Assembly: GCA_017557535.1 (NCBI GenBank)
Contig: JAFYYM010000038.1
Location: 1 to 52,137 of the forward strand
Direction: 5' to 3'
Origin: Bacteroidales bacterium
GTDB taxonomy: Bacteria > Bacteroidota > Bacteroidia > Bacteroidales > UBA932
Length of the DNA: 52,137 nt
Position numbers and translations under genes: made by a program. The notes under the pieces were generated by a model. It saw only the letters and a list, made by a program, of their open reading frames with translations. It made no database searches and was not told where the DNA came from. Positions 184 to 30,401 of the stretch are shown one piece after another. Position 1 is the first letter of the stretch. Every line of letters begins with the position of its first letter.

Positions 184-191
184 TATCTTTG
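184..191 (+). promoter_or_regulatory. -7 promoter element TATCTTTG for the AlbA_2/OB gene
   Basis: Exact match to the Bacteroidota -7 consensus TAnnTTTG. Transcription would start near 198. That excludes an upstream in-frame TTG at 189 as start codon, because it lies inside the box, and favours the ATG at 216. The TTCG half-site seen at other promoters here is absent at the expected place. Confidence 0.7.
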
Positions 192-215
192 TTGAATGTG
201 CAAAGAATCATTCCA

Positions 216-3167: not shown

Positions 3168-3171
3168 GCGT

Positions 3172-12672: not shown

Positions 12673-12677
12673 ACCGA

Positions 12678-15374: not shown

Positions 15375-15402
15375 TATTGTAAAAATGTCGCTTGGTAAGA
15401 GA

Positions 15403-16221
15403 TTATTTCGACAGCTCTGAGGAAATAGACTCTGCAAGAGAGCGGATGCATGAAATGATGTCATTATACGGCTGCCTTTCAAACCACACCTGAAACTTGT
15501 ACTCATTCATCTCATCCTGAGAAACGACACCCTGTTCCACAGCCTTTTTAAACATCGGCACATCCTCTCGGTAAAACCAGACTTTTCCATCTTTAAGACG
15601 TTTCTCGTATTCCAGAATCTTGTCCTTTTCCAACCGGAGACTTCTATGACTCTGGCGATTTCGCACCTCAATTCCGTTCAGGATAGGGGAGATAGTGCTA
15701 TTGTCCCAGTTCAGTTCATATCGAATACGGTATACTTTTGTTTTAAGTGGAATGTCAGATATCTGTGACAGATAGTCTCCAGGGATGTATTTGGGATTAG
15801 TGAGTTGAATAGCATGTACGACCCGGTCAAGATCGGATTGGTATTTCTTCTCAAAGAAGTAGTTCACCAACATCTCGATCTGCATGACACCGAAACGACA
15901 GAACTCAGGGAAATCAATCCTATGGCTGCGGGTACCGTACTGATAACGAAGCATTTCGCGAAAATCGGCTTGCAGGGATTCTCTGACAGGCTCTTCATCG
16001 ATAAAGGAATAGTCCGGAAAATCCTTGTCATCCAACTCGTAGTCAAGGGACAAATATGATGAGATTCTTTTCAAGGAGGGTGTGTCATCAAGCACTTGAT
16101 AGTCTTTGTCGTTCTTGACGATGTCCCGAATCCCGGCAGCAAACTCCTTGTTGTCGGGGTTGTCATAGAGTTCCTTGACGAAAGCCAGAAGCTTCGTCAG
16201 TTGCTTTTTATCTTGTCCCAT
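15403..16221 (-). CDS. Retron 1 accessory protein, HEPN-motif candidate effector
   Basis: 272 residues with no family I can name. Residues 187-192 read RNRQSH, which fits the RNxxxH catalytic motif of HEPN RNases. It sits in a helix-like context (SPILNGIEVRNRQSHRSL) late in the protein, as usual for HEPN domains. The start overlaps the end of the retron reverse transcriptase by 25 nt, so translation is coupled and the two proteins should be made together. Retrons typically carry such an effector, held inactive by the RT-msDNA complex and released on phage attack. By that model this protein would be the toxin. The HEPN call rests on one motif and needs a structure prediction; the operon link is direct. 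Confidence 0.75.
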   Translation of the reverse strand: MGQDKKQLTKLLAFVKELYDNPDNKEFAAGIRDIVKNDKDYQVLDDTPSLKRISSYLSLDYELDDKDFPDYSFIDEEPVRESLQADFREMLRYQYGTRSHRIDFPEFCRFGVMQIEMLVNYFFEKKYQSDLDRVVHAIQLTNPKYIPGDYLSQISDIPLKTKVYRIRYELNWDNSTISPILNGIEVRNRQSHRSLRLEKDKILEYEKRLKDGKVWFYREDVPMFKKAVEQGVVSQDEMNEYKFQVWFERQPYNDIISCIRSLAESISSELSK

Positions 16222-17756
16222 TTGTCAAGGGTATTTAAATCAAAGTCAGAGGATACAAGAGCCTCCAGTGTCGCATCTGTCGTAAGACTGTCAGCGGAAT
16301 CCGTTTCTCCGTTTTCTGGCAAACCTACATAATCTGTCAAAGAGAGGATCTCATCTACATCGGTTATCTCGAGACCCTTTGCTCTGGGAGGGCGGCGGAA
16401 GATCAGCCAGAAATGGTCTTCCTCGGGAGTCCCGTCCATATGGCAGAAACCGATATGAAATTTCTCCTTAAACTTCAGCATGGCGTCTTCATTGCCACTT
16501 TCCAAAATACTTCTGATTCGGGTCTTGGCGTATTTGCCGAGACGGGCGGAATGTGCCGACCCGTTGAGAGTGAATGAACATCTGACGAAATCATCTTCGA
16601 GGGTAAACGAGACGTCCGTTCCAACTGCCTTCTCAAACGCCTCAATAGGATAGGCGTGCAGATATTGGATATTCGTCCCTCCGCACGATTCTTTCTTGTC
16701 GGCCAGGCGGTTGAACCTCTTCTGAAGACGACGCCAGACAAGACTGTCTTCACCTTTGACCATCCGGAGGTACATCAGGCGTCCCATTATTACAGATTTC
16801 ATGTCTGGGGAGCTCTGTTTCAAATCTTGTTTGGGAGTATAACGGGCGATGAATTTGGCAAAGGCGGCATTGTGTCCATGTTTCTCCCAGATATAGAGGA
16901 GATTGTCAAGATCCCGTACATACTCGCGAGCAACGTTCGCTCGGTCACTGACGACAAGACCGGTCACCTCCTGACGCTCACCTCTTTTCTGGGTTCGAGT
17001 CTTCTTCTCATTCAGTTTGAAGTGTTGTTCCGCAACAATTCTTCGGAATTCCCGAAAGAACTCTCCATCATCTTGATATACATAATGATCGCTGGAGAAA
17101 GTTATGTCGTCTGCATAGCGGGAATACTTCAAGTGGAACCGTTTCGCCAGACCGTTGAGTTTCCAATCGAGATTATGGCAAACAATGTTCGTTAATGTAG
17201 GGGAGCATGGTGAACCTTGTGGAAGAACGTGGATAAGTTTTCCATTCTCATCACGAGCCTCAACACAGCAGAGGCCAGCGATGGCACTTGCAATCTCCTT
17301 GGAAAATGAAAAAGGACGGGTCTGCAGTGTACCCCAAACTCTTGCCTGAGGAATGCTAGGGAAGAAATCCTTCAAATCAGAATTGAAGATGTACCGCATA
17401 CCGATATGCCGCTCAGCATTGTCAACAATGGATTTCGAGGGTACAAAACCTGTTACATATTCAGGAGCCTCGTAGAAGGCCTGAAGAATCCTGTTCATAT
17501 ATGTCTGGAGGGACTTCAGGATATGTGTCGGAGCTGAAATCTCGCGTTGTCCTCCAGATTTCTTCGGGATATAGAAGGTCTTATAATGACTGCTATTCCG
17601 CTTGGGATTGATGAAGTAATTAAGCTGCGGCATCGTAAAAGGGTGTCCCTTATCTCCCAGCTCGTCCATCTTGATTCTGTTCAAAAGGACGAGGAGATCG
17701 TGAGTTGTCTCCAACTTGGATGCTGCATGTACAATTGCTTCTCTAGTCATTAGCAT
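16197..17756 (-). CDS. Retron 1 reverse transcriptase with C-terminal extension
   Basis: 519 residues. RT motifs are complete: SDLKDFFPSI (catalytic Asp near 127), PQGSPCSP (179-186) and YADD (214-217). The two retron signatures are present: NAERH (113-117, NAxxH) and VTGLVV (264-269, VTG). The catalytic region ends near 370. A further 150 or so residues, containing KYAKTR and FHIGFC...FWLIFRRPP, form an extension shared with the interrupted RT of retron 2. The start may be ATG 17756 or ATG 17750. An msr-msd RNA with matched a1/a2 repeats lies directly upstream, the a2 repeat ending 16 nt before the start. It reverse transcribes this RNA into msDNA. The downstream HEPN-candidate gene overlaps by 25 nt. 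Confidence 0.95.
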   Translation of the reverse strand: MLMTREAIVHAASKLETTHDLLVLLNRIKMDELGDKGHPFTMPQLNYFINPKRNSSHYKTFYIPKKSGGQREISAPTHILKSLQTYMNRILQAFYEAPEYVTGFVPSKSIVDNAERHIGMRYIFNSDLKDFFPSIPQARVWGTLQTRPFSFSKEIASAIAGLCCVEARDENGKLIHVLPQGSPCSPTLTNIVCHNLDWKLNGLAKRFHLKYSRYADDITFSSDHYVYQDDGEFFREFRRIVAEQHFKLNEKKTRTQKRGERQEVTGLVVSDRANVAREYVRDLDNLLYIWEKHGHNAAFAKFIARYTPKQDLKQSSPDMKSVIMGRLMYLRMVKGEDSLVWRRLQKRFNRLADKKESCGGTNIQYLHAYPIEAFEKAVGTDVSFTLEDDFVRCSFTLNGSAHSARLGKYAKTRIRSILESGNEDAMLKFKEKFHIGFCHMDGTPEEDHFWLIFRRPPRAKGLEITDVDEILSLTDYVGLPENGETDSADSLTTDATLEALVSSDFDLNTLDKWDKIKSN

Positions 17757-17772
17757 GTGATTAAGAAAGGGA

Positions 17773-17785
17773 TTGACATACCGGA
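17773..17785 (-). repeat. Retron 1 a2 repeat
   Basis: TCCGGTATGTCAA on the minus strand, perfect complement of the a1 repeat at 18002-18014. The pairing closes the msr-msd RNA and primes reverse transcription in known retrons. The RT start codon follows after 16 nt. Confidence 0.9.
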
Positions 17786-18001
17786 CTCGTTTTCTTTGTA
17801 TACGTTCTCTTCAGAGAACGGGATAGAGAGAGAATCTCTATATCCGTAAATACATCACCACACAATGTGAGCATCGCTCACATATTCCGCCAGAATGCGG
17901 AACGCAGTGCAGCGTTGTGGCGAAGTAACGCAGAACCCTTTGGTTTTTCCGGCGAAAGCCGGACATCTGTCAAACATGACAGACAAAAGTCAAAAGTTTG
18001 T

Positions 18002-18014
18002 TCCGGTATGTCAA
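18002..18014 (-). repeat. Retron 1 a1 repeat
   Basis: TTGACATACCGGA on the minus strand, pairing with a2 at 17773-17785 over 13 bp without mismatch. Twelve of its bases are shared with the corresponding position of retron 2 (TTGACATACCGG). Confidence 0.9.
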
Positions 18015-18029
18015 AGACCTCTCAGGTTA

Positions 18030-18037
18030 CAAAGATA
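18030..18037 (-). promoter_or_regulatory. -7 promoter element TATCTTTG, retron 1 proximal
   Basis: Exact TAnnTTTG on the minus strand, about 16 nt before the a1 repeat, so the transcript would begin just upstream of the msr. A TTCG tetramer lies exactly 11 nt upstream (18049-18052), as at other promoters here, but the left half of the inverted repeat is missing. Confidence 0.75.
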
Positions 18038-18060
18038 CGGATTTGTTCCGAATCCGACGG

Positions 18061-18095
18061 CAAAGATAGATCTGTTGCGCGAAATGATTTTTCGC
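18061..18095 (-). promoter_or_regulatory. Retron 1 distal promoter with GCGAA-N7-TTCGC inverted repeat
   Basis: TATCTTTG at 18068-18061 on the minus strand, preceded by 10 bp and then a perfect GCGAA-N7-TTCGC repeat at 18079-18095. It sits 31 bp upstream of the proximal box, giving tandem promoter-like elements. The repeat lies only about 20 bp from the stop codon of the SNF2 helicase gene. Confidence 0.65.
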
Positions 18096-18113
18096 GAAAC
18101 AGAACATAAATAA

Positions 18114-20972
18114 TTATTTAAGGGTCCAATGAACGATGAACAGTCTCTCCGACGAAACAGTATTCATTAAACTCAACTGAAGGCGTTCTATTTGTCTTTC
18201 AGATTCCGTATCGTAGTACTCGCGGGCCTCATTACACTTTCTTTCTGCCTCATGGAGTTTCTTACTGAGATCCAATTCATGTTTTCTAAGTTCAACTCTT
18301 TCCGATATGGAAGTGGCTTTTTTTGAGGATCGTCTAATTGTTTGAATCTCCTTACGCAGTGCAATAACTTCATCTTCTAAAGGATACACATTATCATCTG
18401 CCCATGCGTATAGTTTGTCTATCTCCTGATTTAGGAAGTTCTGCATCCTATTAGCTAAATCAACCTTGTATGCCTCTAATGATGCACGAAACTCTTGATC
18501 CAACCTATTAAGGATTCTCTTTGGGACAGGTTCCGTTCGGGTTGTAATGGCTTCCAGTTCCAAGAGTTTCTTGCCAAAATCATCGGGTGTTAATACTCCA
18601 TCTTCTGAAAGGCCACAAATCAGGAGATCTTCTTCATTGTCATGTGAATTACATGCTGACACTCGGTAACCAATGCAGTAGCCACTCTTTCCCTTATACT
18701 TTTCCAAAGTGGCGGAATGGAAGGGATAACCAGATAAATCAAATGTTGTAGCAGATGGTGCCACATCAATGGATAAAGCTTGGTGAATGACGTGTTGACC
18801 AATAGGCGAACTAAGACGTATCTGATGAATATCAGGAGTCTTCTGAAGCGAATACCTTCCAGGCATAATACCATCAAGTCCCTCCTTCAGGGTGAAACTA
18901 TAGCTATCGAAGTCTATATCGCAAATACTGTCATCTAACTCAGCCAGGGTAAGATTCCATAAATGACGGTTGAACTGGTTAATTCGTTCCGAATCTACTC
19001 CTTGTCGGGTCTTAAGTTTCTTGATGACATCTTCATCGAAGTGCTCAAGAAGGGTGCTCTTCGTCTTTCTCATCCTCTCCGAGATGATCTCTTCTAGTTC
19101 AGCCTGGAGGGCGTCAAAAGCGGCATTGATCTCGGATTCGGTGCGGCAGGTCTGATAGATGGCGCAGAGCCGCTGCTCGAAATCGATGTTGGACTCGATG
19201 GCTCCCAACACCTCGTCACTGCTTCCGAAGACTCCCTCAAAGAGCTGGAACTTCGAGTTGAGCAGCTGATAGACCCTGCGGTCTGCGGCGTTGGACTGGT
19301 TGACGAAATTCACCACCACGACGTCATGCTTCTGCCCGTATCGGTGCACGCGCCCGATGCGCTGCTCGATGCGCTGCGGGTTCCAGGGCATGTCATAGTT
19401 GACGACCATGGAACAGAACTGGAGGTTGATGCCTTCCGCTCCGGCCTCCGTGGCGATCATGATGTCGGCATGCTCCTCGAAATAGTCCGTGAGGGCCTGC
19501 TTCCTGTCGATGAGCGGATCTCCGGTCACGCGGTCGCTCCCTTTATGGACGGACAGCCATCGGGTATAGATGCTCTTCGCCTCCGGACCGTTGTTCGTTC
19601 CGTTGAAACAGACGATCTTCCCTCCATAGCCGTGGGCGCTCAGATAATCCTTGAGATACTCCTGGGTTCTGCAGCTCTCGGTGAAGATGAGGGCTTTCCG
19701 GTTGGCGCCCAGTTCGGACATCTTCTGGAATGCAAGCCCCAGAGCTTCGACAAGCGCCTTGGCCTTGCTCTCCTCCCCGATGCTCCTAGCCAGCTGCGCG
19801 TAGCTCTCCAGGTCCGCCATCTCCTCCCTCATGGCCTTCTCGGCCATCTTGTCGCAGGGGAAGAGTTCGCCCTGCGGACCGGCTACGGACTCGTCCGCAT
19901 CGTCTTCGTCAAGAACCTCGTCCTCTTCCGACAGAACGTCCAGAATTCGCCTTGCCTTCCCCGTCGCCAGGTACTCCTGTATGCGGCGTCTGATCCTCTC
20001 TAGGGTGAAGCTGAGCGCATAGGACGACGATGCCATGATTTTTCGGATCGTGATGGTCATCAGGGGGCGTGTGTTGTCGGGAACGCCGAACAGGAACGGC
20101 CTCATCAGGTAATCGGTAACCTTGTCGTACAGTTCCTGCTCCTTCGGGCTCAGGGAGAAATCCTGGACCATGGCCGACCGTTTCGTATACCGGACGTACT
20201 CCTGAACCTGACGGCGCAGCGTCCGCTGGATGATGTGCTGAAGCCGTCCTTTTAACTCGCCGAACCGGGCGCTGTCCCGCGTAGAAATGGCGTTGTACTC
20301 CTCCGAGAAATTGTCAATGCTGGAGAAATACTGTCCGTCGATGATGCTGACGAGTCCGTAGAGCTCGTTGAGGTTGTTCTGGAGCGGTGTGGCTGTCAGG
20401 AGGACTTTCTTGTAAGGAAGAAGGGCGCGCCGGATCGCGGCAGCGATCTTGTTCTTCTTCTTGAAGACGTTCCGGAGCTTGTGCGCCTCGTCAAGGACGA
20501 CGAGATCCCACGGGGTCTTGCCGATCTCCTCGGCATGCTTGGCGGCAAAATGATAGGAGCAGATGATGATTCCGTCCTGATCGAAAGGGTCTTCGTCCGC
20601 GGCCTTCATCTCTTCATAGGTCTTGCCGACCAGGACGGAGGAGGGGAGGAAGAACTTCTCCCGAAGCTCGAAGCACCACTGGTTGCGGAGAGAGGCCGGA
20701 ACGATCACCAGGATCCTCCGTTTGTGCTCAGCCCAGCTCTGGGACAGGATGATTCCCGCCTCGATGGTCTTCCCGAGGCCCACCTCGTCGGCGAGGATTG
20801 CCCCCTTGCTGAGAGGCGACTTGAACGCGAAGAGGGCGGCGTCAACCTGATGGGGGTTGAGGTCCACGCGCGCTTCGGACAGCACCCCCGTGAAACGGGA
20901 GTCGTCCGCGGTGGATTTCTTGTGGGAGATGTCCCAGGCGAAGTATCTCTTCTGAAGGTCGGTCAGGCGCAT
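18114..20972 (-). CDS. SNF2/RapA-type helicase of the Zorya-like operon
   Basis: 952 residues. SWI2/SNF2 ATPase motifs: DEVGLGKTIEAG (62-73), DEAH (161-164, followed by KLRN), TATPLQNN, and a second RecA-like lobe with ATEAGAEGINLQF and QRIGRVHRYGQ near 534-545. A long coiled-coil-rich C-terminal part follows. It plays the role that ZorD, also an SNF2 helicase, plays in classical Zorya, or that RapA/DrmD-like proteins play in other defence systems. It is the last gene of a four-gene operon, 6 nt after the GHKL ATPase gene. Composition breaks inside the gene: the line at 19741 is 65% GC by hand count, the line at 18301 is 40%, with the shift near 19080. That suggests the 3' third was exchanged by recombination. 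Confidence 0.9.
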   Translation of the reverse strand: MRLTDLQKRYFAWDISHKKSTADDSRFTGVLSEARVDLNPHQVDAALFAFKSPLSKGAILADEVGLGKTIEAGIILSQSWAEHKRRILVIVPASLRNQWCFELREKFFLPSSVLVGKTYEEMKAADEDPFDQDGIIICSYHFAAKHAEEIGKTPWDLVVLDEAHKLRNVFKKKNKIAAAIRRALLPYKKVLLTATPLQNNLNELYGLVSIIDGQYFSSIDNFSEEYNAISTRDSARFGELKGRLQHIIQRTLRRQVQEYVRYTKRSAMVQDFSLSPKEQELYDKVTDYLMRPFLFGVPDNTRPLMTITIRKIMASSSYALSFTLERIRRRIQEYLATGKARRILDVLSEEDEVLDEDDADESVAGPQGELFPCDKMAEKAMREEMADLESYAQLARSIGEESKAKALVEALGLAFQKMSELGANRKALIFTESCRTQEYLKDYLSAHGYGGKIVCFNGTNNGPEAKSIYTRWLSVHKGSDRVTGDPLIDRKQALTDYFEEHADIMIATEAGAEGINLQFCSMVVNYDMPWNPQRIEQRIGRVHRYGQKHDVVVVNFVNQSNAADRRVYQLLNSKFQLFEGVFGSSDEVLGAIESNIDFEQRLCAIYQTCRTESEINAAFDALQAELEEIISERMRKTKSTLLEHFDEDVIKKLKTRQGVDSERINQFNRHLWNLTLAELDDSICDIDFDSYSFTLKEGLDGIMPGRYSLQKTPDIHQIRLSSPIGQHVIHQALSIDVAPSATTFDLSGYPFHSATLEKYKGKSGYCIGYRVSACNSHDNEEDLLICGLSEDGVLTPDDFGKKLLELEAITTRTEPVPKRILNRLDQEFRASLEAYKVDLANRMQNFLNQEIDKLYAWADDNVYPLEDEVIALRKEIQTIRRSSKKATSISERVELRKHELDLSKKLHEAERKCNEAREYYDTESERQIERLQLSLMNTVSSERLFIVHWTLK

Positions 20973-20978
20973 GGCTAT

Positions 20979-23900
20979 CTATACTCTTGGAAGCTTTTCA
21001 ATCTTAATTCCGTACTCGGGAGAGGCGCTGTCGAACTCTTCGATCTCGGCCCCCCTCCAGTATTTCTTCGCAATATCCTGGCAGGCCTTCTTGAGCGCCG
21101 GGTTCGCCTCGTAGTCGGCTTCGGCACCGTACAGGTCCCTGATGCGCTCATAGGATTTGTTCAGGTCCAGGTCGGTGAGGGAGATGCGTACGATGCGGAA
21201 CTGCTCATCGGGATGCATCTGCATGAAGCGGTTCTGGGACTTGTGGATGTAGAACGGGACCGCCTCCTCCTTAAACGAGTAGAGGTTGGTCTTCACGTCG
21301 ACATAAATCGCGGGGCGGGCAGTGGTCGCCTTGAGCTTGAAGTCATAGTCCCCGACTCCCTGGGCGGCGGCGTATTCGTGCTCGATATGATTGTTCTTCA
21401 GATACTGCTCGTAAATAAGCTCGCCAATGTATCCGATGGTCTTGCGGACCTTGGACTGCATGGATTCGTCATCGTCGTCGGGCATGTCTTCGAGAAGGTT
21501 CCGGATCTTGTCCTTGTTCTCGGCGACCGTCTTGAGCTCCTCCTCGGTCAGACCCTCGACGATATCCTTGATGGTGTCAAGGTTCTCGTTGATCTTGTCG
21601 ACGGTCTCCTCACCCAGCGCCTGGGCCATCTCGACCGCCTTCTTCTCGCTTTCGCTCAGGGCGTTGGGGTCGATGCCCTGCTCGACCATGTCCACATAAA
21701 TGCTTTGCAGGGCGATGAACGGGTCCTTGAAGAACTGGGTGGCCTTGGCGACACGCTCGAGAGTCTTCATCTCGGTGAGACCCTCCTGGTTGGGGTGCTG
21801 GATGATCACCTTCTTCTCGTCGGCGTCATAGCCGAACAGGTCGCTCTTGGAGGCGATCTTCACGGCCTGCTCCCCGGTGGATTCGTTGATGACAGAGAGG
21901 ATGATGCCCACGGGGGCCTGACTGAGGAAGATCCTGACTCCTCCGGACTCGTCAGAATCCTTCCATTGCGCGTAGGCGTTCGTGTTCCATTCCTCGTAAT
22001 CCTTCTTTTCGGCCGTCGTCCTTATGACATAGCGCGTCCTGTCGTTGAGCCCCTGGCTCATGAGGAAGTTGAGGTTCAAGCCGTTGTATCCGTAGATCTT
22101 GTTCTGAGCGAAGAACTGCTTGAGCGGGACTTTCCTGTCGATCTGATCCACATTGGAACGAACGTTTTCGAAGGTCATGAGAGCCCCATCAGCGGCCATG
22201 TACTCGAACGAGAGGATCGGGACGGGAAGGCCCAACTCGTCCTTGGCCAAGGTGGCCGGAAACCGAAGCCCCGGAAGGGGATTCATATCCTCCGGCAACT
22301 TGTCGAGGAGATTGCTCAGCACGACGAAGCGCGCATCCGTGTATAGAAGAGGGATGTTGAAATGCTGATCGACGATCCACCGGACGGTACGATGGAGGCA
22401 GGCCTCGTCATTGACGACGGCCTGGATGCTCTGGAAAGAGGCGTTCTCTTTCAGGGCGGCACGAATCGCGATGTTCTCGCAGGCCTCGGTCTTCAGCCCC
22501 CTCAGGAGCAGGAGCGCCTTCTCCCTGTCCTTCCCGATCCAAGCGGAAACGGCCTCTGGGAGCTGTTCCTCCGCCAGGAGGAGCTCCTTCGGAGCGTACA
22601 CCTGCTTGTCCTTGTCGAAGTCCTTCATCGTAAAGTACTCGTCGAATCCGACGAACCCGTATTGGCTGATCATGTCCAGGGCTTCGGAAAGGGATTCGTC
22701 CTCATCGATTTCCAGGTCTTTGTAGCTCACCTTCTTCGTGATGGAGTAGTCCAGGCAGAAACGAAGCTGCTCGACTGAGAGATAAGTGTTGTAAAGCTCG
22801 TCGTATACATCCTCGGCGCTCTTCGCCTCCTCGCTGTCGGAGTAGACGAACTTCCGGAACAGGGCAGGGTCGGGGAGGCAGCCGAAGAAGCTGTCGGCCA
22901 GTTCGTTCTCGGTCTGGGCGTCCCCGAGCAGGAGGTACAGGTCGTAGTCCGTTCCGTTGAAACTGACGATGTTGGACTTGATGGTCTCCGGCAGATGCTG
23001 GCCCTTGTGCGTGATGAGCCTCATCAGGCGGGCTCGGTAATAGCCGTCCGACTGGTCCTTGCCCAGTGCGTAGCGGATGATCTGCCACGTGATGTCGTCC
23101 TCCTCCAGCGCACTGTCGACGGCGAGTCCCTGGAGATTTTCGAAGAAAATCCTGTTGATGGAGTCGTTGTGCAGTTTCACCACGGGAAGGAGCACCGGGA
23201 GCTTGTCCTTGGGAAGCCTCCCGAGGACGGATTCCATCATGGCGTTGTTCGTTGTAAGCTCGTATTCGGCGAGCTGGTTGACGAAGTAACGGCACACTTC
23301 GGGATCGATCCGGTTGTATCCGATGCCCTTAAGGGCCGCGTCAAGCGGCTCTGAATCTATCGCACACGTGTAATTGCTGCCTCCGGCAAGTTTGGTGACG
23401 GCATAGTTGTCGTTCCCTGAGAAACTGACCTTGAATGCCCGGAGGATGGAGGCTCCGGTAATCTTGACGATGCACTGGAGAAGACGGGCGTCGACCGTCG
23501 CGCCGCTGTCCAAAATTTCGCTGACCGATACGGAATCCGTCTCGAAAGGCGCTTCGGAAAGGGTGCCCTTGAACTGGTACGGGACGAGGGGATATCCCTT
23601 CGTCGAGGCGAACATGGCCATCCTGTCGTACTGCTCGCTGTCGAGTTTGTCGCTGGAGCGTAGCAGGAAGCATTTCTCGTCGGTGGGGACGCCGTTCTCG
23701 TCAAGATACAGGGCGATCCTTCCCGAAGGCCTTTCGGCCGTCTCGAAGATGGAGCGGATGTCCTTCAGATACTGCCTGTTCTGATCCGCCCAATCCGGAA
23801 GAGCTTCAATCGCGGCCATGTGGCCGAGCAGCCAGGACCAGATGTCCTTGGGCGTGGAGATGAAGAGGTCGTCCGGAAGGATGTCCGGCACATATCCCGC

Positions 23901-25934
23901 GACGCAGCAGTTGTCGAACAGGATGCTTCCCTCGGGCTTCCTGCGTATCAGCTCTGCCATCGGCCGGTAAACGCCGTCCAGACTCTGGAACAGGAGGACC
24001 TTCTCCTTGATGGCGGTCAGGGTCCGGGGAAGGCGTCTTGCATCGACCAGGATATGGCCGGCAACGTCTGTCCTGGCCGATCCTTCCCGGTAAAAGCCGA
24101 TATGTGAGGCGATCTTGGATATGTTGATCGTGCCGATATTGAGGGTCTGGTCTTCACTGAAATAAGTGATGGGCCCCAGGACATACTCTATTTCGGGACA
24201 ACGGTCCAGATGGTTATGTCCCGCCGTGGCATCATACAAGATGACGGGATTCTCAAATGTCAGGAGCTCATCCAAGCTGTAAACATTACCCTTGTTGGTA
24301 AGGAAGACGTGCTTGCGGGCGATGGTACTTTCTTCCTTGCTTAGCCGCAGGAATTCACCATGGAGACCTTCGTACCGGTCCTTGCCGATGGTCTTGATCC
24401 ATTCGGCGAGCATCTTGTCGTCGGCCGCCAACAGGATGTCCTTGAGGGTGAGGCTGTCCAGCTTGATCCCGAAACGCTGTATCTGCCCCTTCGAGATGTC
24501 CTCGCTGACCCATCGGTACGCCTTGATTCCCAGTTTGTCAAGGGGAATCATATCGCTACCTTCGGGCTTCCTGACCATGCTCATCGGGAGATAGTCCCCC
24601 TCCTGGGTCTTCACGTTGTCCCTGATGAAAGGCAGGAACGTAGCATAGAAAGGACGGCTGATGAACTGCACGTCCTCATTGTCCTTCAGCGGCTGGGATG
24701 CAAGGATGGACTGGTAGATGTAGTCGAACTGCTCCTTGTCGTCCGCCTTGATTCTCTTGATCTGCTCGAGGAGATGACGGAACGCTTCAGTCAGCTGAAG
24801 TTCGGTTTTCCTGGTGTCGTTGATGCGCTGGCGGCTGTCGTCATGGTCGAAGTTCTGGGAGTCGATGATGAATCCCATTTTGTACCTGGTCTCCGTGATG
24901 GGGAGGGTCCTGAACAGCGTGACGGTTCCGTCCTTTGCAAAAGCCGGGTTGAAGGCGAACTGATAAGAGAAGGATCCTTCGGTGTCCGGAATCGTGAAAT
25001 CCACGGACAGGGAGTGAACGACATGCTGCATCTCCACCTCCTGATGGTTGATGTAGATGTGGTCGAGACGACGCCCCTTGTTCTTCTCCTTGTCGGCGGT
25101 GAGGACGGTGAAGCCCGCCAGCCGCGTCAGTACCTTGCCGATGTTCTTCTCGTCGGCGATGGCTTCGTATTGTCCCTTTCCAAGGGGGATGATGATCGCG
25201 GTACCCGTCTTGAGGCGGTTGATGTTCCGCTTGGGGTCCACGAGCCTCTCGAAGGCGGCGCGGATGTCATGGAACTCCTTCCTGGAGAAGAGCGAATTGT
25301 CCACTCCCGGGGCTATCGGGAAGTAGGTCATCAGGATCTTGCAGACGAGAAGGTCCGGGTCTTCCTTGTATGGGTCGGTATACGTCCAGCCGTCAGTGCT
25401 CTGGAGGCGGAAGTTGTCAAGCTGGACACGGTTTCCCCAGCTGACGAGGTACGGCCCTTTCCGGCATTCCTTTATGGCCTTCAGCAGAAGCGTGCTGTTG
25501 CTGGCGACGCTCTTGTCCGCAATGAGGTTGTAAAGGAGCTTCGAGCCCTGGCCGAACTCTCCGCTCTTGCTGTCGTCGCCCGCCTTGAGGGATTTCCCCT
25601 TGGTGAGGAAATTGTACAGCTGGCCGTCCCTGGGATCGGGGCCGATGGGGTCGGTGAAGAATGGCTCGCCGTTGTTGAGGACAATAAGATAATCCTTGTC
25701 GAAAAAGAAGCAGAGGGAATCCGCATTGGCGTCGAATGCGTTCTGCACGAATTCATAGAACAGCTGCTCTTCGCTGTCCTTGGCGAACCTGGCAACGTTG
25801 GTGACGGTGGGGTCGATCCTTTGCCCGAAACCGTGCAGCACGCTAAGGAAGGGCTCTTCGTCCGTGCCGAGCTTCTCTATGGAAGCGTCCTTGCAGTAAC
25901 CTTGGATGTATGTCTTTATGTCGCGGACTTTCAT
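20979..25934 (-). CDS. GHKL (sacsin/Hsp90-like) ATPase with C-terminal DUF3883 / PD-(D/E)XK-like domain
   Basis: 1651 residues. The N-terminus has a GHKL ATPase fold: N box EFVQNAFDANAD (61-72, Asn65), G1 box VLNNGEPF (85-92) and G2 box GEFGQGSK (125-132), resembling sacsin-like or Hsp90-like ATPases. The middle thousand residues are not recognised. A DUF3883-like region at about 1495-1600 has GELIYEQYL, GDYDFKL and VDVKTN, consistent with a PD-(D/E)XK nuclease core (an Asp then DxK). The gene lies between zorB-like and SNF2 genes with 6-nt gaps on each side, so it is a core component. It takes the place that ZorC holds in type I Zorya, with no visible similarity. Expected role: ATP-dependent sensing or clamp coupled to DNA cleavage; inferred. 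Cytoplasmic. Confidence 0.85.
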   Translation of the reverse strand: MKVRDIKTYIQGYCKDASIEKLGTDEEPFLSVLHGFGQRIDPTVTNVARFAKDSEEQLFYEFVQNAFDANADSLCFFFDKDYLIVLNNGEPFFTDPIGPDPRDGQLYNFLTKGKSLKAGDDSKSGEFGQGSKLLYNLIADKSVASNSTLLLKAIKECRKGPYLVSWGNRVQLDNFRLQSTDGWTYTDPYKEDPDLLVCKILMTYFPIAPGVDNSLFSRKEFHDIRAAFERLVDPKRNINRLKTGTAIIIPLGKGQYEAIADEKNIGKVLTRLAGFTVLTADKEKNKGRRLDHIYINHQEVEMQHVVHSLSVDFTIPDTEGSFSYQFAFNPAFAKDGTVTLFRTLPITETRYKMGFIIDSQNFDHDDSRQRINDTRKTELQLTEAFRHLLEQIKRIKADDKEQFDYIYQSILASQPLKDNEDVQFISRPFYATFLPFIRDNVKTQEGDYLPMSMVRKPEGSDMIPLDKLGIKAYRWVSEDISKGQIQRFGIKLDSLTLKDILLAADDKMLAEWIKTIGKDRYEGLHGEFLRLSKEESTIARKHVFLTNKGNVYSLDELLTFENPVILYDATAGHNHLDRCPEIEYVLGPITYFSEDQTLNIGTINISKIASHIGFYREGSARTDVAGHILVDARRLPRTLTAIKEKVLLFQSLDGVYRPMAELIRRKPEGSILFDNCCVAGYVPDILPDDLFISTPKDIWSWLLGHMAAIEALPDWADQNRQYLKDIRSIFETAERPSGRIALYLDENGVPTDEKCFLLRSSDKLDSEQYDRMAMFASTKGYPLVPYQFKGTLSEAPFETDSVSVSEILDSGATVDARLLQCIVKITGASILRAFKVSFSGNDNYAVTKLAGGSNYTCAIDSEPLDAALKGIGYNRIDPEVCRYFVNQLAEYELTTNNAMMESVLGRLPKDKLPVLLPVVKLHNDSINRIFFENLQGLAVDSALEEDDITWQIIRYALGKDQSDGYYRARLMRLITHKGQHLPETIKSNIVSFNGTDYDLYLLLGDAQTENELADSFFGCLPDPALFRKFVYSDSEEAKSAEDVYDELYNTYLSVEQLRFCLDYSITKKVSYKDLEIDEDESLSEALDMISQYGFVGFDEYFTMKDFDKDKQVYAPKELLLAEEQLPEAVSAWIGKDREKALLLLRGLKTEACENIAIRAALKENASFQSIQAVVNDEACLHRTVRWIVDQHFNIPLLYTDARFVVLSNLLDKLPEDMNPLPGLRFPATLAKDELGLPVPILSFEYMAADGALMTFENVRSNVDQIDRKVPLKQFFAQNKIYGYNGLNLNFLMSQGLNDRTRYVIRTTAEKKDYEEWNTNAYAQWKDSDESGGVRIFLSQAPVGIILSVINESTGEQAVKIASKSDLFGYDADEKKVIIQHPNQEGLTEMKTLERVAKATQFFKDPFIALQSIYVDMVEQGIDPNALSESEKKAVEMAQALGEETVDKINENLDTIKDIVEGLTEEELKTVAENKDKIRNLLEDMPDDDDESMQSKVRKTIGYIGELIYEQYLKNNHIEHEYAAAQGVGDYDFKLKATTARPAIYVDVKTNLYSFKEEAVPFYIHKSQNRFMQMHPDEQFRIVRISLTDLDLNKSYERIRDLYGAEADYEANPALKKACQDIAKKYWRGAEIEEFDSASPEYGIKIEKLPRV

Positions 25935-25940
25935 GCTGTT

Positions 25941-26717
25941 CTAGAAATTGATGTACGGGATGATCTGAATGATGAATGTCTTGTTCTTGTCCTCTCCCCT
26001 CGGGTCCTGGGGCGAATACTTGTACCGGTTCTGCCCGCCATACCCCGAGCCGCTGACAAACAGCTCTCCCGGGTACTTGTGCCCGGTGTCGACCCTCGCT
26101 GCGGAAGTGGCGGGATCGTTATACAAGAGGTCGCTCAGGATGTCGTTGCTCCGCCAGAGTTCGACCACGGTAAGCGCCCGCTTGTAACTGTTCTCGAGCC
26201 CCTGCTTCCAGGCTGAAGGATTCCCTTCTGGAGTCACCCAATGGATGCCGCCGTCCTTTAGGTTGTTCGCAAGACGGCCTTCGACGACCACCTTGAACAT
26301 CACGCCGGTGGTTTTGGTGAACTGGGTGAGGATGGAGTCCAGTTCACGTCCCGCGCTCTTCAAGTCTTCGACATATTCCGGCCGGATGTGTTCGAAGTCG
26401 TTCGACGTGAACTGTACGTCAATCTTGCATTCAAACCGCTTGTATTGCTCGTTGTATCGGAAATACTTCGATTTGAGAGCCTTCTGCGCATCCTGGAAAT
26501 CACGGATCTTTTCATAGAGCTCAGCGTTGATGATGATGTCGTTGACGTTCGCCTCCGTTATGCCTTTCTCGTGGTACAGGTCGACGTAGATCTTGTAGCT
26601 GGAGTAAGCCACGAGACTTGCGACGATGAACACGATGAGGAACCCGGACATGAGGTCCGTATAGTTCTGCCAGAAGTTATGCTCCTCGCCGTCGTTATGA
26701 AGATTCAGACGTTTCAT
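25941..26717 (-). CDS. zorB: ZorB-like (MotB/OmpA-type) membrane protein
   Basis: 258 residues. One N-terminal membrane helix (about 22-42) begins with YTDLMSGFLIVFI, in which Asp21 corresponds to the proton-binding aspartate of MotB and ZorB. The periplasmic C-terminus has an OmpA-like pattern (VVVEGRL... then NSYKRALTVVELWRSN) expected to bind peptidoglycan. The start codon overlaps the stop of the ZorA-like gene as ATGA, so the pair is translationally coupled. In Zorya, ZorA5-ZorB2 forms a proton-driven motor in the inner membrane that signals phage entry. The motor pair is recognised by membrane topology, the key Asp and gene order; assignment to Zorya rather than another MotAB/TolQR relative also depends on the neighbouring SNF2 helicase. 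Confidence 0.8.
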   Translation of the reverse strand: MKRLNLHNDGEEHNFWQNYTDLMSGFLIVFIVASLVAYSSYKIYVDLYHEKGITEANVNDIIINAELYEKIRDFQDAQKALKSKYFRYNEQYKRFECKIDVQFTSNDFEHIRPEYVEDLKSAGRELDSILTQFTKTTGVMFKVVVEGRLANNLKDGGIHWVTPEGNPSAWKQGLENSYKRALTVVELWRSNDILSDLLYNDPATSAARVDTGHKYPGELFVSGSGYGGQNRYKYSPQDPRGEDKNKTFIIQIIPYINF

Positions 26718-28090
26718 TTGGGCGCGATTCTGGACAGTACGGATTCAAGCTTCTGGAGGGAGACGATGGCCTTCCCGAGTTCCTCGATACGCATGACGAT
26801 CGCCTCCATGTTGGCCTCTTTCTCCTTGACGACGGAAATGACCTTCTCCACGCTCTCGTTGGTCTTCCCTACGCTCTTCAGTCCGCTTTCGACTTCTGCG
26901 AGCTCCTTCTCGACCTTCTCGTTGAGGTCATGCGCATTCTGGACGGCGTCGCGGTAGGCCTCAGAGGCCTGCTCGTAATTGGAGACGATACTGGCGGACT
27001 GGTCGCTGATGAACTCGTAGGATTCGTTGAGCTTCTGGACGTTCTCCGCTACGGCAGCTTCCAGGAGGGTGATCTGTTCGGAAACGGAGGAGATGATCCG
27101 GGTCGCCGTCTCGCTGAGAGATGTGGACATCTGCGACAGGAGGTTGCTGTTGAAGGCGCTCTGGTTTTCGACGGACTGCTTCTGGAGGGCAAGCGAATCG
27201 TCGGCCAGTTGCTTGAGGGCGGCCGTCTGCTGCGTCGTCAGGTTTTCAATGCCGGAAACCGTGTCGGCCTTGAGGCCATCAACGGCCGTCTTCAGGGAGT
27301 CTCGGATATCCGCAAGATCCGCGGAACTGGCCTCGGTCAGCGTCCTGACGGACTCCTGATGGGAGGCGAGGATTCCTAGTGCGTCGTTATCGAGCTGCTT
27401 CGTGAGACCTTCCAGAAGCTCGCGGCTCTGGTTGAACTGCGTCGTACCGAAGTTGGTGACCCTCTCTTCGATGACGGTGTTCATTGCCTGGAAGCAATTC
27501 TCCATCTCCTTCACAAACTTGTCGACGAACTTGTCGAGAATGTCGCTCTGCGCGGCAATGCTGTCGGTCAGCTTTTGGTTGTTCTCCTTGTTTGCGGCCA
27601 CCTCGTTGTCGATGGCTTCCGTCATCTTCGTGACGTGCTCGTCGAGGGCTTCGAGAGCGCGTTCGGGTTCCTTGTATTTGAGCGACTCCACCAGAACCGA
27701 GTCTTCCTTTGCGAAATGCAGTTTGGTGAAAATGGTCGCGATGAACGCGAACACCAGTCCATAGATGGAGGTCGAGAAAGCGGGGATCAAGTTTGCTATG
27801 ATCTCTTTCAAGTCGAGGGTGTTATGCGCCACTTCGCCGACAGTTTTCCCAACTTCAGGAACTGCGACAGCGGTTTCGGAAGAGATGCCCGCGAGAGAGT
27901 AGCAGATGGCCCCGAAGGTCCCGAGGATACCAAGGGAAGTGAAGAGACCGGGCATGGAGGTCAGCAGATTCCGGGACTTGGTCTTGTTGTAATGGTACAG
28001 GAAGACTACCACGACGATGATGTCCAAAGACAAGATCAAGGCGTTCCACCAGTTCGCCCAAGGGATAAGCGTTCTTAAAAAGTCACTCAT
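26714..28090 (-). CDS. zorA: ZorA-like (MotA/ExbB-type) motor protein with long coiled-coil tail
   Basis: 458 residues. Three membrane helices at about 16-35, 46-66 and 103-124, the last two carrying PGLFTSLGILGTFGAICYSL and LIPAFSTSIYGLVFAF, the typical MotA/ExbB/ZorA helix-3 and helix-4 motifs. Residues about 135-458 are a long heptad-like, Ala/Glu/Ser-rich coiled coil that would form the cytoplasmic tail characteristic of ZorA. It is the first gene of the Zorya-like operon. A TAAATTTG box lies 48 nt upstream. In known Zorya the tail transmits the signal from the ZorAB motor to cytoplasmic effectors, here presumably the GHKL ATPase/nuclease and the SNF2 helicase. Confidence 0.82.
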   Translation of the reverse strand: MSDFLRTLIPWANWWNALILSLDIIVVVVFLYHYNKTKSRNLLTSMPGLFTSLGILGTFGAICYSLAGISSETAVAVPEVGKTVGEVAHNTLDLKEIIANLIPAFSTSIYGLVFAFIATIFTKLHFAKEDSVLVESLKYKEPERALEALDEHVTKMTEAIDNEVAANKENNQKLTDSIAAQSDILDKFVDKFVKEMENCFQAMNTVIEERVTNFGTTQFNQSRELLEGLTKQLDNDALGILASHQESVRTLTEASSADLADIRDSLKTAVDGLKADTVSGIENLTTQQTAALKQLADDSLALQKQSVENQSAFNSNLLSQMSTSLSETATRIISSVSEQITLLEAAVAENVQKLNESYEFISDQSASIVSNYEQASEAYRDAVQNAHDLNEKVEKELAEVESGLKSVGKTNESVEKVISVVKEKEANMEAIVMRIEELGKAIVSLQKLESVLSRIAPK

Positions 28091-28262: not shown

Positions 28263-30401
28263 TTATCTATGTACAATCGTCCGAAGAAATCTTGACGGCA
28301 TCTGGGCATAACCCCATTGGTTCTTCTGCGCATATGTCAGGTACAGGTCTCCCTTAGTGCGGGTCGCAGCGACGAACATGGACTTGAGAAGGTCATTGAG
28401 GTAGACCGCCTTGCCGTGGTCATCCTTTTCACGGGCGAACCACATATTTGGGAAATTACCCTCGGAGAGTCCCATGACGATGACGTTCTTCCATTCCAAC
28501 CCCTTTGCAGAGTGGATGGTAGAGACTGTTAGATACTTGTCCGTAACCGGGACCTTGCATTCCACATAGTTCTTCTCGATGAACCGGGAAAAGGTTTCTC
28601 GGTCAATGGCAAAAGATAATAGAAAGTCTGCAATGGTGTTGTACTGGGCGGTCATCTCCTCCAGAGCCTTAAGGTCTTCCTTGATGACTGCATCTTCATA
28701 ATAGAAATAATGGTCGATCAAGGTGGCTGCGATGGTCTTCAGAGAGACGTCTTCCTTGATGCGTGCCTTTCTTTCAATGTCTTCTTTGATTTCCTTAAGG
28801 AAGCGTCCTTCGTTGGTGTTATAGAACCTTTCAGTGACGTTCCTTCCATTCATGTTGTCGAGTTTGAGCATGAACACCCTGCCGATAGCATTGATGCTAT
28901 ACACATTGTCGCTGTCGATGATGCGAAGGAGATGGTTGAATATCTTGATGTGTTTCTTGACGAGCTTCTGCCCTCCGAATACCTTGTAGGGGATTCCTGC
29001 CTTTCCAAGAAGGTCGATAAACTTTTCGAGGTATTTCAAGTTCTGGCAAAGAACGGCCGTGTTATTGAGGTCGTTGATACGCTGAACCCTTCCGAGCACA
29101 TTGAGCGCTTCGCTATCAGGATTGTCGCATCCCGTCACCTGCACTTCTCCTGTTGTCCCACCTACGCTCCTGAGAGGCGTATTGTCACAGTCAAGGAACT
29201 GGAAAGTGTTGACATAGTTGCAGACCGGCTGCGGGCAACGGTATGTTCCAGTAAGATTCTTTCTGGTATAGTTGCTGTGACGTCTCAGGAAGGCGTCGAG
29301 ATGTTCATAGGAACCACCATTGAATCCAAAGATGTTCTGGCGGGAATCTCCGACAAGGAACATCTTTACATCTGGGTTGACCTGGAGGATAAGATCGAAG
29401 ATCCTGTAATTGAGCTCGGTCAGATCCTGAGCCTCATCGATTACAAGTACAGAGATCTGGTTTTTGAACCACATACGGAATTCCATTTTCCCCAGCAGGT
29501 CGATGAAATTCGTAAGGATATCATCAATGGAAATGATGTTGTAGCGGCTCTTCATATCGCTGATGAGCTGCTGGAGCTGGGGGTTATCTGAGCGTAAACG
29601 CGACTTGAGGCAGACCTTGATGGCATCCTTTGTATACTTGTCATTGAACTGGATGCGGAATTCTTCAGCGAGTTCCTCGATGTCGGTATCATCGATAATG
29701 ATGAAGTTGAAATCCTTGCCGATGTTCGTATAGTAACTCTTCATCATCTTGAAACAGAAGGAATGCAGAGTTCCGTTATAGAAATCATAGGGGCGTGTGA
29801 TTCCACTCTCGAAAGCTGCACGACGGAACTTCTCGCCGAGCTCATAGGCGGCGGTATTGGTGTAGGAAAGGGCAACTATCTTCTCCTGTTTTGAGGATGA
29901 ACTGATGTAATGGAGGAGTTTGTTGATCAGCAGGTGAGTCTTGCCGGTACCAGGACCAGCGCTGACATAGATAATCTGTGCATCACAGAGGACGGCATCC
30001 TTCTGCTCGTCATTGAGACCGGCAAGCTCATCGGAAGAAGTGTACCCGATGAATTCTATCGTGGTCTGGTCGGGGAGCACTTCCGTAGCGAGGTAAATAA
30101 GCCTCACAAGCATATTGTAGTACAGAATGTAGGTAGACTTGTCAACCTTGAGATTATGATGGACGACATCATTCAACTGGTCCTTCAAAGCAAAAGCAGC
30201 TTTGGAGACATCATTGTATTTGTTCCACTTGTAGAACTCTTTCAACGCCTCCGCAAAAGTCCCGTATGTCCTCGTGATTTCATTGTAAAAATCATGGGCT
30301 ACGGTCCGGATGGACTTTGCCTTGTCCGTCCAGTCACTATCCGGTTTCAGATAGTAGAATTTGAGCATTTCGTAGTACTCATGTACCCTTTCCTGTGTCA
30401 T
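28263..30401 (-). CDS. UvrD/Rep-family superfamily 1 helicase
   Basis: 712 residues. Motifs: SAGPGTGKTHLL (Walker A, near 150), SYTNTAAYELGEKFR (Ia), DEAQDLTELNYRIF (II), VGDSRQNIFGFNG (III), GTYRCP (IV), TIHSAKGLEWKNVIVMG (V) and VAATRTKGDLYLTYA (VI). All seem intact, so it should be an active 3'-5' DNA translocase. Residues 1-140 are unrecognised. It is 172 nt upstream of the zorA-like gene on the same strand; it may be an extra component of that system or a separate gene. Its ATG is preceded by an unusually good Shine-Dalgarno sequence. The UvrD-like half of the giant protein at 3172-10857 is a second helicase of this superfamily in the window. Confidence 0.93.
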   Translation of the reverse strand: MTQERVHEYYEMLKFYYLKPDSDWTDKAKSIRTVAHDFYNEITRTYGTFAEALKEFYKWNKYNDVSKAAFALKDQLNDVVHHNLKVDKSTYILYYNMLVRLIYLATEVLPDQTTIEFIGYTSSDELAGLNDEQKDAVLCDAQIIYVSAGPGTGKTHLLINKLLHYISSSSKQEKIVALSYTNTAAYELGEKFRRAAFESGITRPYDFYNGTLHSFCFKMMKSYYTNIGKDFNFIIIDDTDIEELAEEFRIQFNDKYTKDAIKVCLKSRLRSDNPQLQQLISDMKSRYNIISIDDILTNFIDLLGKMEFRMWFKNQISVLVIDEAQDLTELNYRIFDLILQVNPDVKMFLVGDSRQNIFGFNGGSYEHLDAFLRRHSNYTRKNLTGTYRCPQPVCNYVNTFQFLDCDNTPLRSVGGTTGEVQVTGCDNPDSEALNVLGRVQRINDLNNTAVLCQNLKYLEKFIDLLGKAGIPYKVFGGQKLVKKHIKIFNHLLRIIDSDNVYSINAIGRVFMLKLDNMNGRNVTERFYNTNEGRFLKEIKEDIERKARIKEDVSLKTIAATLIDHYFYYEDAVIKEDLKALEEMTAQYNTIADFLLSFAIDRETFSRFIEKNYVECKVPVTDKYLTVSTIHSAKGLEWKNVIVMGLSEGNFPNMWFAREKDDHGKAVYLNDLLKSMFVAATRTKGDLYLTYAQKNQWGYAQMPSRFLRTIVHR

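Follow-up and report, generated by a model that had tools for sequence, protein, structure and literature searches.

A four-gene minus-strand locus encodes a ZorAB-like motor, a TmtA homologue and an SNF2 protein

The window, by which we mean the whole 52,137-nucleotide (nt) stretch from a Bacteroidales bacterium along which all positions are numbered, contains four tightly spaced genes on the minus strand. They encode two motor subunits resembling ZorA and ZorB of Zorya, a large homologue of TmtA, which we take to be the protein of the defence system Tiamat, and an SNF2 translocase. From the first gene of the set to the last, they are (lengths in amino acids, aa):

26714..28090, minus strand: ZorA-like motor subunit, 458 aa, whose cytoplasmic tail is long and helical, with the membrane motifs PGLFTSLGILGTFGAI and IPAFSTSIYGLVFAF
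25941..26717, minus strand: ZorB-like subunit, 258 aa, with a single transmembrane helix bearing Asp21 and an OmpA-like periplasmic part
20979..25934, minus strand: TmtA homologue, 1651 aa, with a GHKL N terminus (about 40–420), a long middle and a C-terminal PD-(D/E)XK/NOV_C-like domain (about 1490–1651)
18114..20972, minus strand: DrmD-like SNF2 translocase, 952 aa, assigned by PADLOC, Pfam and NCBIfam matches

The ZorA-ZorB, ZorB-GHKL and GHKL-SNF2 junctions measure -4, +6 and +6 nt. Coordinates, lengths and junctions are as a first-pass annotation of this DNA had given them, and the family matches agree with its description of a ZorAB-like motor followed by a GHKL ATPase whose end is nuclease-like and by an SNF2 ATPase. 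When the four genes are compared with their counterparts at locus L006, from the same genus, protein identity is 82–86% while nonsynonymous divergence (dN) is 0.09–0.11 and synonymous divergence (dS) 0.77–1.08, so that all four are coding and under purifying selection.

The motor subunits are relatives of Zorya ZorA and ZorB

The best PADLOC matches were ZorA2 (4.7e-07) for the ZorA-like protein and ZorB1 (5.1e-08) for the ZorB-like protein. Profiles made from four homologues of each were compared with the Protein Data Bank (PDB); the ZorA-like profile best matched 8vvn_C (E 1.6e-06, residues 37–395) and the ZorB-like profile 8vvn_B (E 4.4e-06), followed by an unrelated ribosomal protein (0.048) and by 8qyd_F (0.089). 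Entry 8vvn is taken here as the Shewanella Zorya type I ZorAB, judged by its 696-residue ZorA, a length named in the accessible text of PMC11890865. Asp21 of the ZorB-like protein, singled out by the first-pass annotation as the key residue, is invariant in 4/4 aligned homologues, where it lies inside an equally invariant HNFWQNYTDLM stretch. Pfam returned neither a MotA nor an OmpA match for the two subunits, and the ZorB-like protein has no Pfam match of any kind. PADLOC and the PDB point to Zorya ZorAB, weakly so for the ZorA-like protein, and the NCBIfam Zorya cut-offs are not reached.

Identity between the ZorA-like proteins of the window and of the more distant locus L069, taken in 30-residue blocks, is 63% at residues 31–60 and 57% at 91–120, falls to 13–17% at 241–300 and is 53% at 361–390. 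The middle is thus less conserved than the distal tail, a pattern compatible with a docking site in the tail but no demonstration of one.

The large protein is a TmtA homologue with ATPase and nuclease-like ends

The PADLOC TmtA model (PDLC03970), for which no PADLOC cut-off is given, matches the 1651-aa protein with 626 bits (4.8e-188), residues 1–1609 aligning with positions 1–1544 of the 1552 in the profile. A literature search joining the names TmtA and Tiamat found no paper. The window protein is 21 and 19% identical to the two other full-length TmtA relatives that were aligned with it, and a sequence search of the PDB found nothing noteworthy, an epoxide hydrolase at E 0.37 being the best match. 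The first-pass annotation had regarded this protein as foreign to Zorya; it does fall outside the Zorya components as far as the accessible parts of PMC8565338 and PMC11890865 describe them, while its identity as a member of a described defence family, TmtA, had gone unseen.

Within the N-terminal domain, E61, N65, D68, G89, G125, G128, G130 and K132 are invariant in 24/24 aligned sequences, which bears out the motifs N65 and GEFGQG (G125, G128 and G130) noted at first pass. The GHKL box preceding GEFGQG reads NNG, and both the E..N pattern of the N-box and the GxxGxG pattern are present. Pfam SACS matches all 24 of these domains at E up to 0.1 (2.9e-05 for the window) and HATPase_c_3 matches 11; the NCBIfam sacsin-type domain scores 31.4 bits with a cut-off of 50. 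A structure predicted for residues 1–420 (predicted local distance difference test, pLDDT, 74.4) gave 67 Foldseek matches at E 0.001, led by MORC3 and MORC4 and by ATPases of the Hsp90 type (lowest E 2.3e-07), with modest TM-scores of 0.24–0.47 among the 50 of 67 matches listed. The predicted fold of the N terminus is that of a MORC/Hsp90-like GHKL ATPase.

The C-terminal domain was aligned with that of the TmtA relative of locus L068 and with three DUF3883-type domains, and G1501, E1505, D1531 and K1548 are kept in 7/7 sequences, four of which are matched by Pfam NOV_C (PF13020), presumably the former DUF3883. Its predicted model (pLDDT 79.9) has as top Foldseek match a chain of SPARDA (probability 0.99, E 0.061), and later matches mix nucleases with unrelated proteins. 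With its PD-(D/E)XK-like residues, the C terminus of TmtA is predicted to be nuclease-like.

TmtA-like proteins were also seen in other settings. At L076:6529-12351 a TmtA-like N terminus is fused to a C-terminal DarT domain (PADLOC DarT 7.5e-10 at residues 1434–1636), beside a Macro/HsdM_N protein. At L077:3040-11887 a TmtA-like protein lies between PglZ (1.4e-48) and DUF4268 genes, all on one strand.

The SNF2 protein is nearest to DrmD

The SNF2 protein carries the Pfam domains SNF2-rel_dom (1.5e-36) and Helicase_C (1.1e-18), and its best solved relative is RapA. DrmD was its best match in PADLOC (2.1e-193), a result read from the best 25 of 50 matches, in which ZorD figures as a distant SNF2 relative. 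In NCBIfam, DrmD_b came first with 650.6 bits (cut-off 950) and a second DrmD model reached 247.4 of 610, while ZorD gave 75.4 bits (cut-off 1500). The SNF2 domains reported at first pass are present, in a protein nearer DISARM DrmD than ZorD, a likeness that the first-pass annotation had not seen: by its matches, the SNF2 protein occupies the place of ZorD yet is DrmD-like.

The gene order is repeated in other genomes

The complete four-gene order was found in two further genomes. In Bacteroidales bacterium UBA1237 (L006), genes for a UvrD helicase, ZorA, ZorB, TmtA and SNF2 follow each other as in the window, and in genome G178 (L069), of another family in the same order, the ZorA-, ZorB-, TmtA- and SNF2-like proteins are 35, 48, 39 and 50% identical to those of the window. 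The first-pass annotation had staked its proposal beforehand on the four genes occurring together elsewhere, and these two genomes supply that co-occurrence. The order kept in another family, together with the low dN beside the dS, indicates more than a chance arrangement. At two more loci, L007 (RUG12619) and L120 (G956; same family, other genus), ZorA, ZorB and the start of TmtA are followed by the contig end. Across the five loci the ZorA-ZorB/ZorB-TmtA junctions are -4/+6, -4/+5, +2/+9, -4/+1 and -4/+3 nt.

How these loci were reached affects what they can tell. L006, L007 and L069 were located with the TmtA sequence or the PADLOC TmtA model and L120 alone through ZorB, so that linkage has been tested independently from the motor at a single locus, with a positive outcome. 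To count five linked loci of five would be circular, because the ZorB profile was built from loci found through TmtA (the sequences of the window, L006, L007 and L069). This profile matched 15/249 genomes in the family, 2/5 in the family of G178 and 17/395 in the class, with E below 1e-100 in G000, G956 and G178. Of 101 genomes in the genus, two encode the large protein, one of them being that of the window, and the PADLOC TmtA model matched 43/393 genomes of the order and 43/395 of the phylum, many of these matches being short or weak. Among the open reading frames of 82 records, a window-type ZorA or ZorB was present solely in the window (and its own pieces), G024/L006, L007 and L069; one of the 13 tabulated TmtA neighbourhoods has ZorAB adjoining TmtA (L069).

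For the search beyond Bacteroidota, genome contigs were scanned with peptide patterns sensitive to close relatives; 2 loci matched. TmtA was not found on the plasmids searched, nor ZorB in the phages searched, and pattern scans of viral contigs confirmed no relative of TmtA, ZorA or ZorB; the plasmid search for ZorB gave one Parabacteroides record. Carriage of the system by phages or plasmids is unsupported by these scans.

The operon combines parts resembling those of Zorya, Tiamat and DISARM

With Zorya type I the locus shares a gene order in which a large protein and an SNF2-type ATPase come after the motor, the conserved Asp of the ion path and the long ZorA tail, and by analogy its layout of motor, large partner and SNF2 ATPase fits that of Zorya I. 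It differs in that TmtA stands where ZorC would, with no ZorC among the matches listed, in that its SNF2 protein is DrmD-like, and in an apparently altered peptidoglycan motif. The ZorA/ZorB core is common to Zorya types II and III as well, while ZorE, ZorF (DUF3348) and ZorG (DUF2894) are absent from the matches listed for the four proteins. Zorya type III was ruled out, its ZorF and ZorG being DUF3348 and DUF2894 proteins (PMC8565338, accessible text). The locus accordingly lies outside Zorya types I–III, whose parts differ as the available portions of PMC8565338 and PMC11890865 present them, in line with the first-pass annotation; because the accessory genes are absent and the cut-offs are not reached, we do not claim membership in Zorya.

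The likeness to Tiamat consists in the end-to-end TmtA alignment, with a GHKL N terminus and a DUF3883/NOV_C-like C terminus. Tiamat is a single-gene system, whereas TmtA is here fixed between motor and SNF2 genes in an operon-like arrangement with three partner genes. DISARM shares the SNF2 protein, nearest to DrmD, but both NCBIfam DrmD cut-offs are missed and no DrmB, DrmC or DISARM methylase is among the matches listed, DrmA appearing there as a weaker SNF2-type match of the SNF2 protein. A literature search, with most subscription papers and preprints beyond its reach, found no ZorAB-TmtA-SNF2 combination among the papers listed. Within the sources searched, the four genes are a novel grouping of parts already known, and they probably form a new motor-driven defence system.

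A motor-coupled defence system is the most probable function

Gene order and its conservation, the family assignments, the ATPase motifs, Asp21 and the nuclease-like residues are the observations from which we argue. In our judgement it is fairly likely, on this sequence evidence, that the four genes form a motor-coupled system against invaders, most likely phages, built of Zorya-, Tiamat- and DISARM-type parts and following a Zorya-like logic. ZorAB-like complexes, placed in the inner membrane, would let ions pass along a path containing Asp21 of ZorB and would turn or tense the long cytoplasmic helical tail. Entry of DNA would disturb the envelope and open the motor, and the activated ZorA tail might then recruit or load TmtA. 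Driven by ATP, the MORC/Hsp90-like GHKL domain of TmtA could clamp shut; the DrmD-like SNF2 protein would move along the entering DNA as a translocase, and cutting or nicking of this DNA would fall to the PD-(D/E)XK-like C terminus of TmtA. We infer all of this, namely stoichiometry, ion flow, sensing, tail recruitment, clamp action, cleavage and defence.

Several observations weigh against such a system. As the PADLOC library consists of defence models only, a match to it is not in itself evidence of a role in defence. In NCBIfam the ZorB-like protein reaches 15.9 of the 400 bits set as cut-off for ZorB1, and none of the ZorA models was matched; Pfam SACS gives the window protein 24.4 bits, with a curated cut-off of 32.8. 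Pfam NOV_C is not listed for the window's own C-terminal domain, and Foldseek found no match at E 0.001 for the C-terminal model. Five loci are available in all, two of them ending at contig ends, and with the window-type ZorA and ZorB profiles no ZorAB was found beside the remaining TmtA relatives examined. The periplasmic part of the ZorB-like protein is a further point. GHTD is a motif of OmpA-type proteins at the peptidoglycan-binding site; in its place the ZorB-like protein reads EGRLA, with NKTF where its relatives have NxRF, and this placement is uncertain, the HMMER alignment to 8vvn_B pairing another stretch. R180, the Arg of the RA motif, is retained by comparison with related ZorB-like proteins. 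In Zorya, His and Arg residues of the peptidoglycan motif are required (PMC11890865, accessible text). The motif seems altered in the ZorB-like protein and, if this is right, the Zorya model of peptidoglycan sensing is not simply transferable.

The absence of ZorAB beside other TmtA relatives would be expected if two independent systems adjoined each other, a ZorAB-like motor on the one side and a Tiamat-like TmtA/SNF2 pair working without it on the other. The same applies to the Bacteroidota ZorB-like motors that have other partners or stand as an apparently bare pair, and the linkage has been lightly tested from the motor side, most loci having been found through TmtA. Nevertheless, the two junctions are short in all five loci (-4 to +9 nt), the linkage is kept across 35–50% identity, and the only strong ZorB homologue found independently of TmtA (that of L120) again precedes TmtA, so we regard two separate systems as unlikely.

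GHKL and SNF2 ATPases are able to sense DNA, which counts for a scheme of abortive infection in which TmtA and SNF2 would detect foreign DNA and the ion-conducting motor would kill the cell by depolarisation. A comparable order of events was once proposed for Zorya (PMC8565338, accessible text), but later structural work, as represented in the accessible parts of PMC11890865, favours the motor first and the nuclease last, and the C terminus of TmtA has retained nuclease-like residues; we hold killing by the motor to be improbable, somewhat more so than two adjoining systems. A machine outside defence, serving the envelope or stress responses together with DNA-repair partners, would suit the effector-less motor pairs of one Bacteroidota family and a peptidoglycan motif unlike that of Zorya, but is very improbable, given that the two large proteins come closest to TmtA and DrmD among described families, that the distribution within the genus is patchy, and that restriction-type genes (for T5orf172 and ResIII/RE_endonuc proteins) lie upstream of ZorA at L069.

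Having a ZorAB-like motor and TmtA in a single operon offers a way into motor-to-effector signalling in Zorya and into the mechanism of Tiamat, listed as unknown in the accessible part of PMC10482375. The operon poses the question whether a GHKL ATPase that ends in a nuclease-like domain is gated by an ion motor.

Related motors adjoin other genes in Bacteroidota

Distant ZorB homologues join the ZorB-like protein of the window in one family (hhalign E 2.2e-38), and their best solved relative is Zorya ZorB (8vvn_B, 7e-13). The ZorA-like proteins paired with them lie further from that of the window (hhalign E 5.4e-10, confined to residues 52–197); the first PDB matches are coiled-coil apolipoproteins, followed by ZorA (8vvi_F, 1.2e-05), and one (L122) of four scanned with PADLOC had no match. 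The set comprises 35 neighbourhoods, to which four genomes contributed two each.

One group has the motor pair after a DarT gene (PF14487) and a DUF6939 gene, at L121:9674-13618, L122:3641-7647 and, on a Parabacteroides distasonis plasmid, L155:5499-9621; a NADAR-DarT1 antitoxin match was obtained solely in L155, below its cut-off. At L139:6320-12399 the pair and a second ZorB-like gene lie between DarT and an ADP-ribosylglycohydrolase gene. From their sequences, the DarT-adjacent pairs possibly constitute a motor-coupled DarT system in which DUF6939 may be a NADAR-type antitoxin.

A recurrent operon joins the ZorA/ZorB-like pair to a tubulin-like protein and a protein of about 1130 aa (L124, L127–L138, L143, L145, L152 and L154; for example L132:106-10675). 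Relatives of the L132 tubulin-like protein occur in 17/35 loci and those of its 1135-aa neighbour in 19/35, the L132 protein being the one scored with Pfam Tubulin_2 (PF13809; 27.8 bits, cut-off 27). Pairs without an evident effector were seen at nine loci of six genomes in family f174 (L140–L142, L144 and L146–L150), where neighbours were not scanned.

Because related ZorB-like proteins adjoin both DarT genes and the tubulin-like operon, the motor has the look of a module that can be plugged into different systems. A bolder and more tentative proposal, which we would place slightly short of even, is that ZorAB-like ion motors are a universal Bacteroidota front end for unrelated back ends (TmtA with the DrmD-like SNF2 protein, DarT with a putative antidote, the tubulin-like operon), that the Tiamat ATPase-nuclease is gated in this way, and that motor gating is general in bacterial immunity rather than peculiar to Zorya. 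The DarT- and tubulin-partnered relatives provide a comparative set for what ZorAB-like motors sense.

Neighbouring genes

Directly upstream of the four genes lies a further gene, not noticed in the first-pass annotation, that is probably outside the core set:

28263..30401, minus strand: UvrD/GajB-like superfamily 1 (SF1) helicase, 712 aa

It is present in 3/5 loci, those of the window, L006 and L120, the latter two copies being 76 and 55% identical to that of the window. The gap before ZorA is 172 bp in the window and 171–583 bp across the loci carrying UvrD, and at L120 a DUF1810 gene intervenes. UvrD was not found in the L069 region examined, nor in the 654 nt before the ZorA gene of L007 (no match below E 4.9). 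Its GC content is 0.47, compared with 0.53–0.57 in the four genes, and its dS is not computable. These points weaken the case for a fifth core gene, and because of its presence in 3/5 loci, the wide gap and the different GC content we take UvrD as a frequent neighbour.

The reverse transcriptase operon downstream (10879–17756) was likewise considered as part of the system, which is not supported: tblastn with the reverse transcriptase and its 272-aa neighbour gave nothing at E 1e-3 in L006, L003, L005, L069, L120 and L007. The reverse transcriptase itself (16197–18113) is close to PADLOC RT-Protease_XI (3.4e-103), and the 357 nt before it are predicted to fold very stably (z -9.57, 100 shuffles) and have a long closing stem, which would suit a retron RNA. 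At 189–10857, a gene for an SLFN_AlbA_2/WYL protein is separated by 4 nt from one for a 2561-aa protein with DEAD/Helicase_C and UvrD helicase domains, possibly another defence pair.

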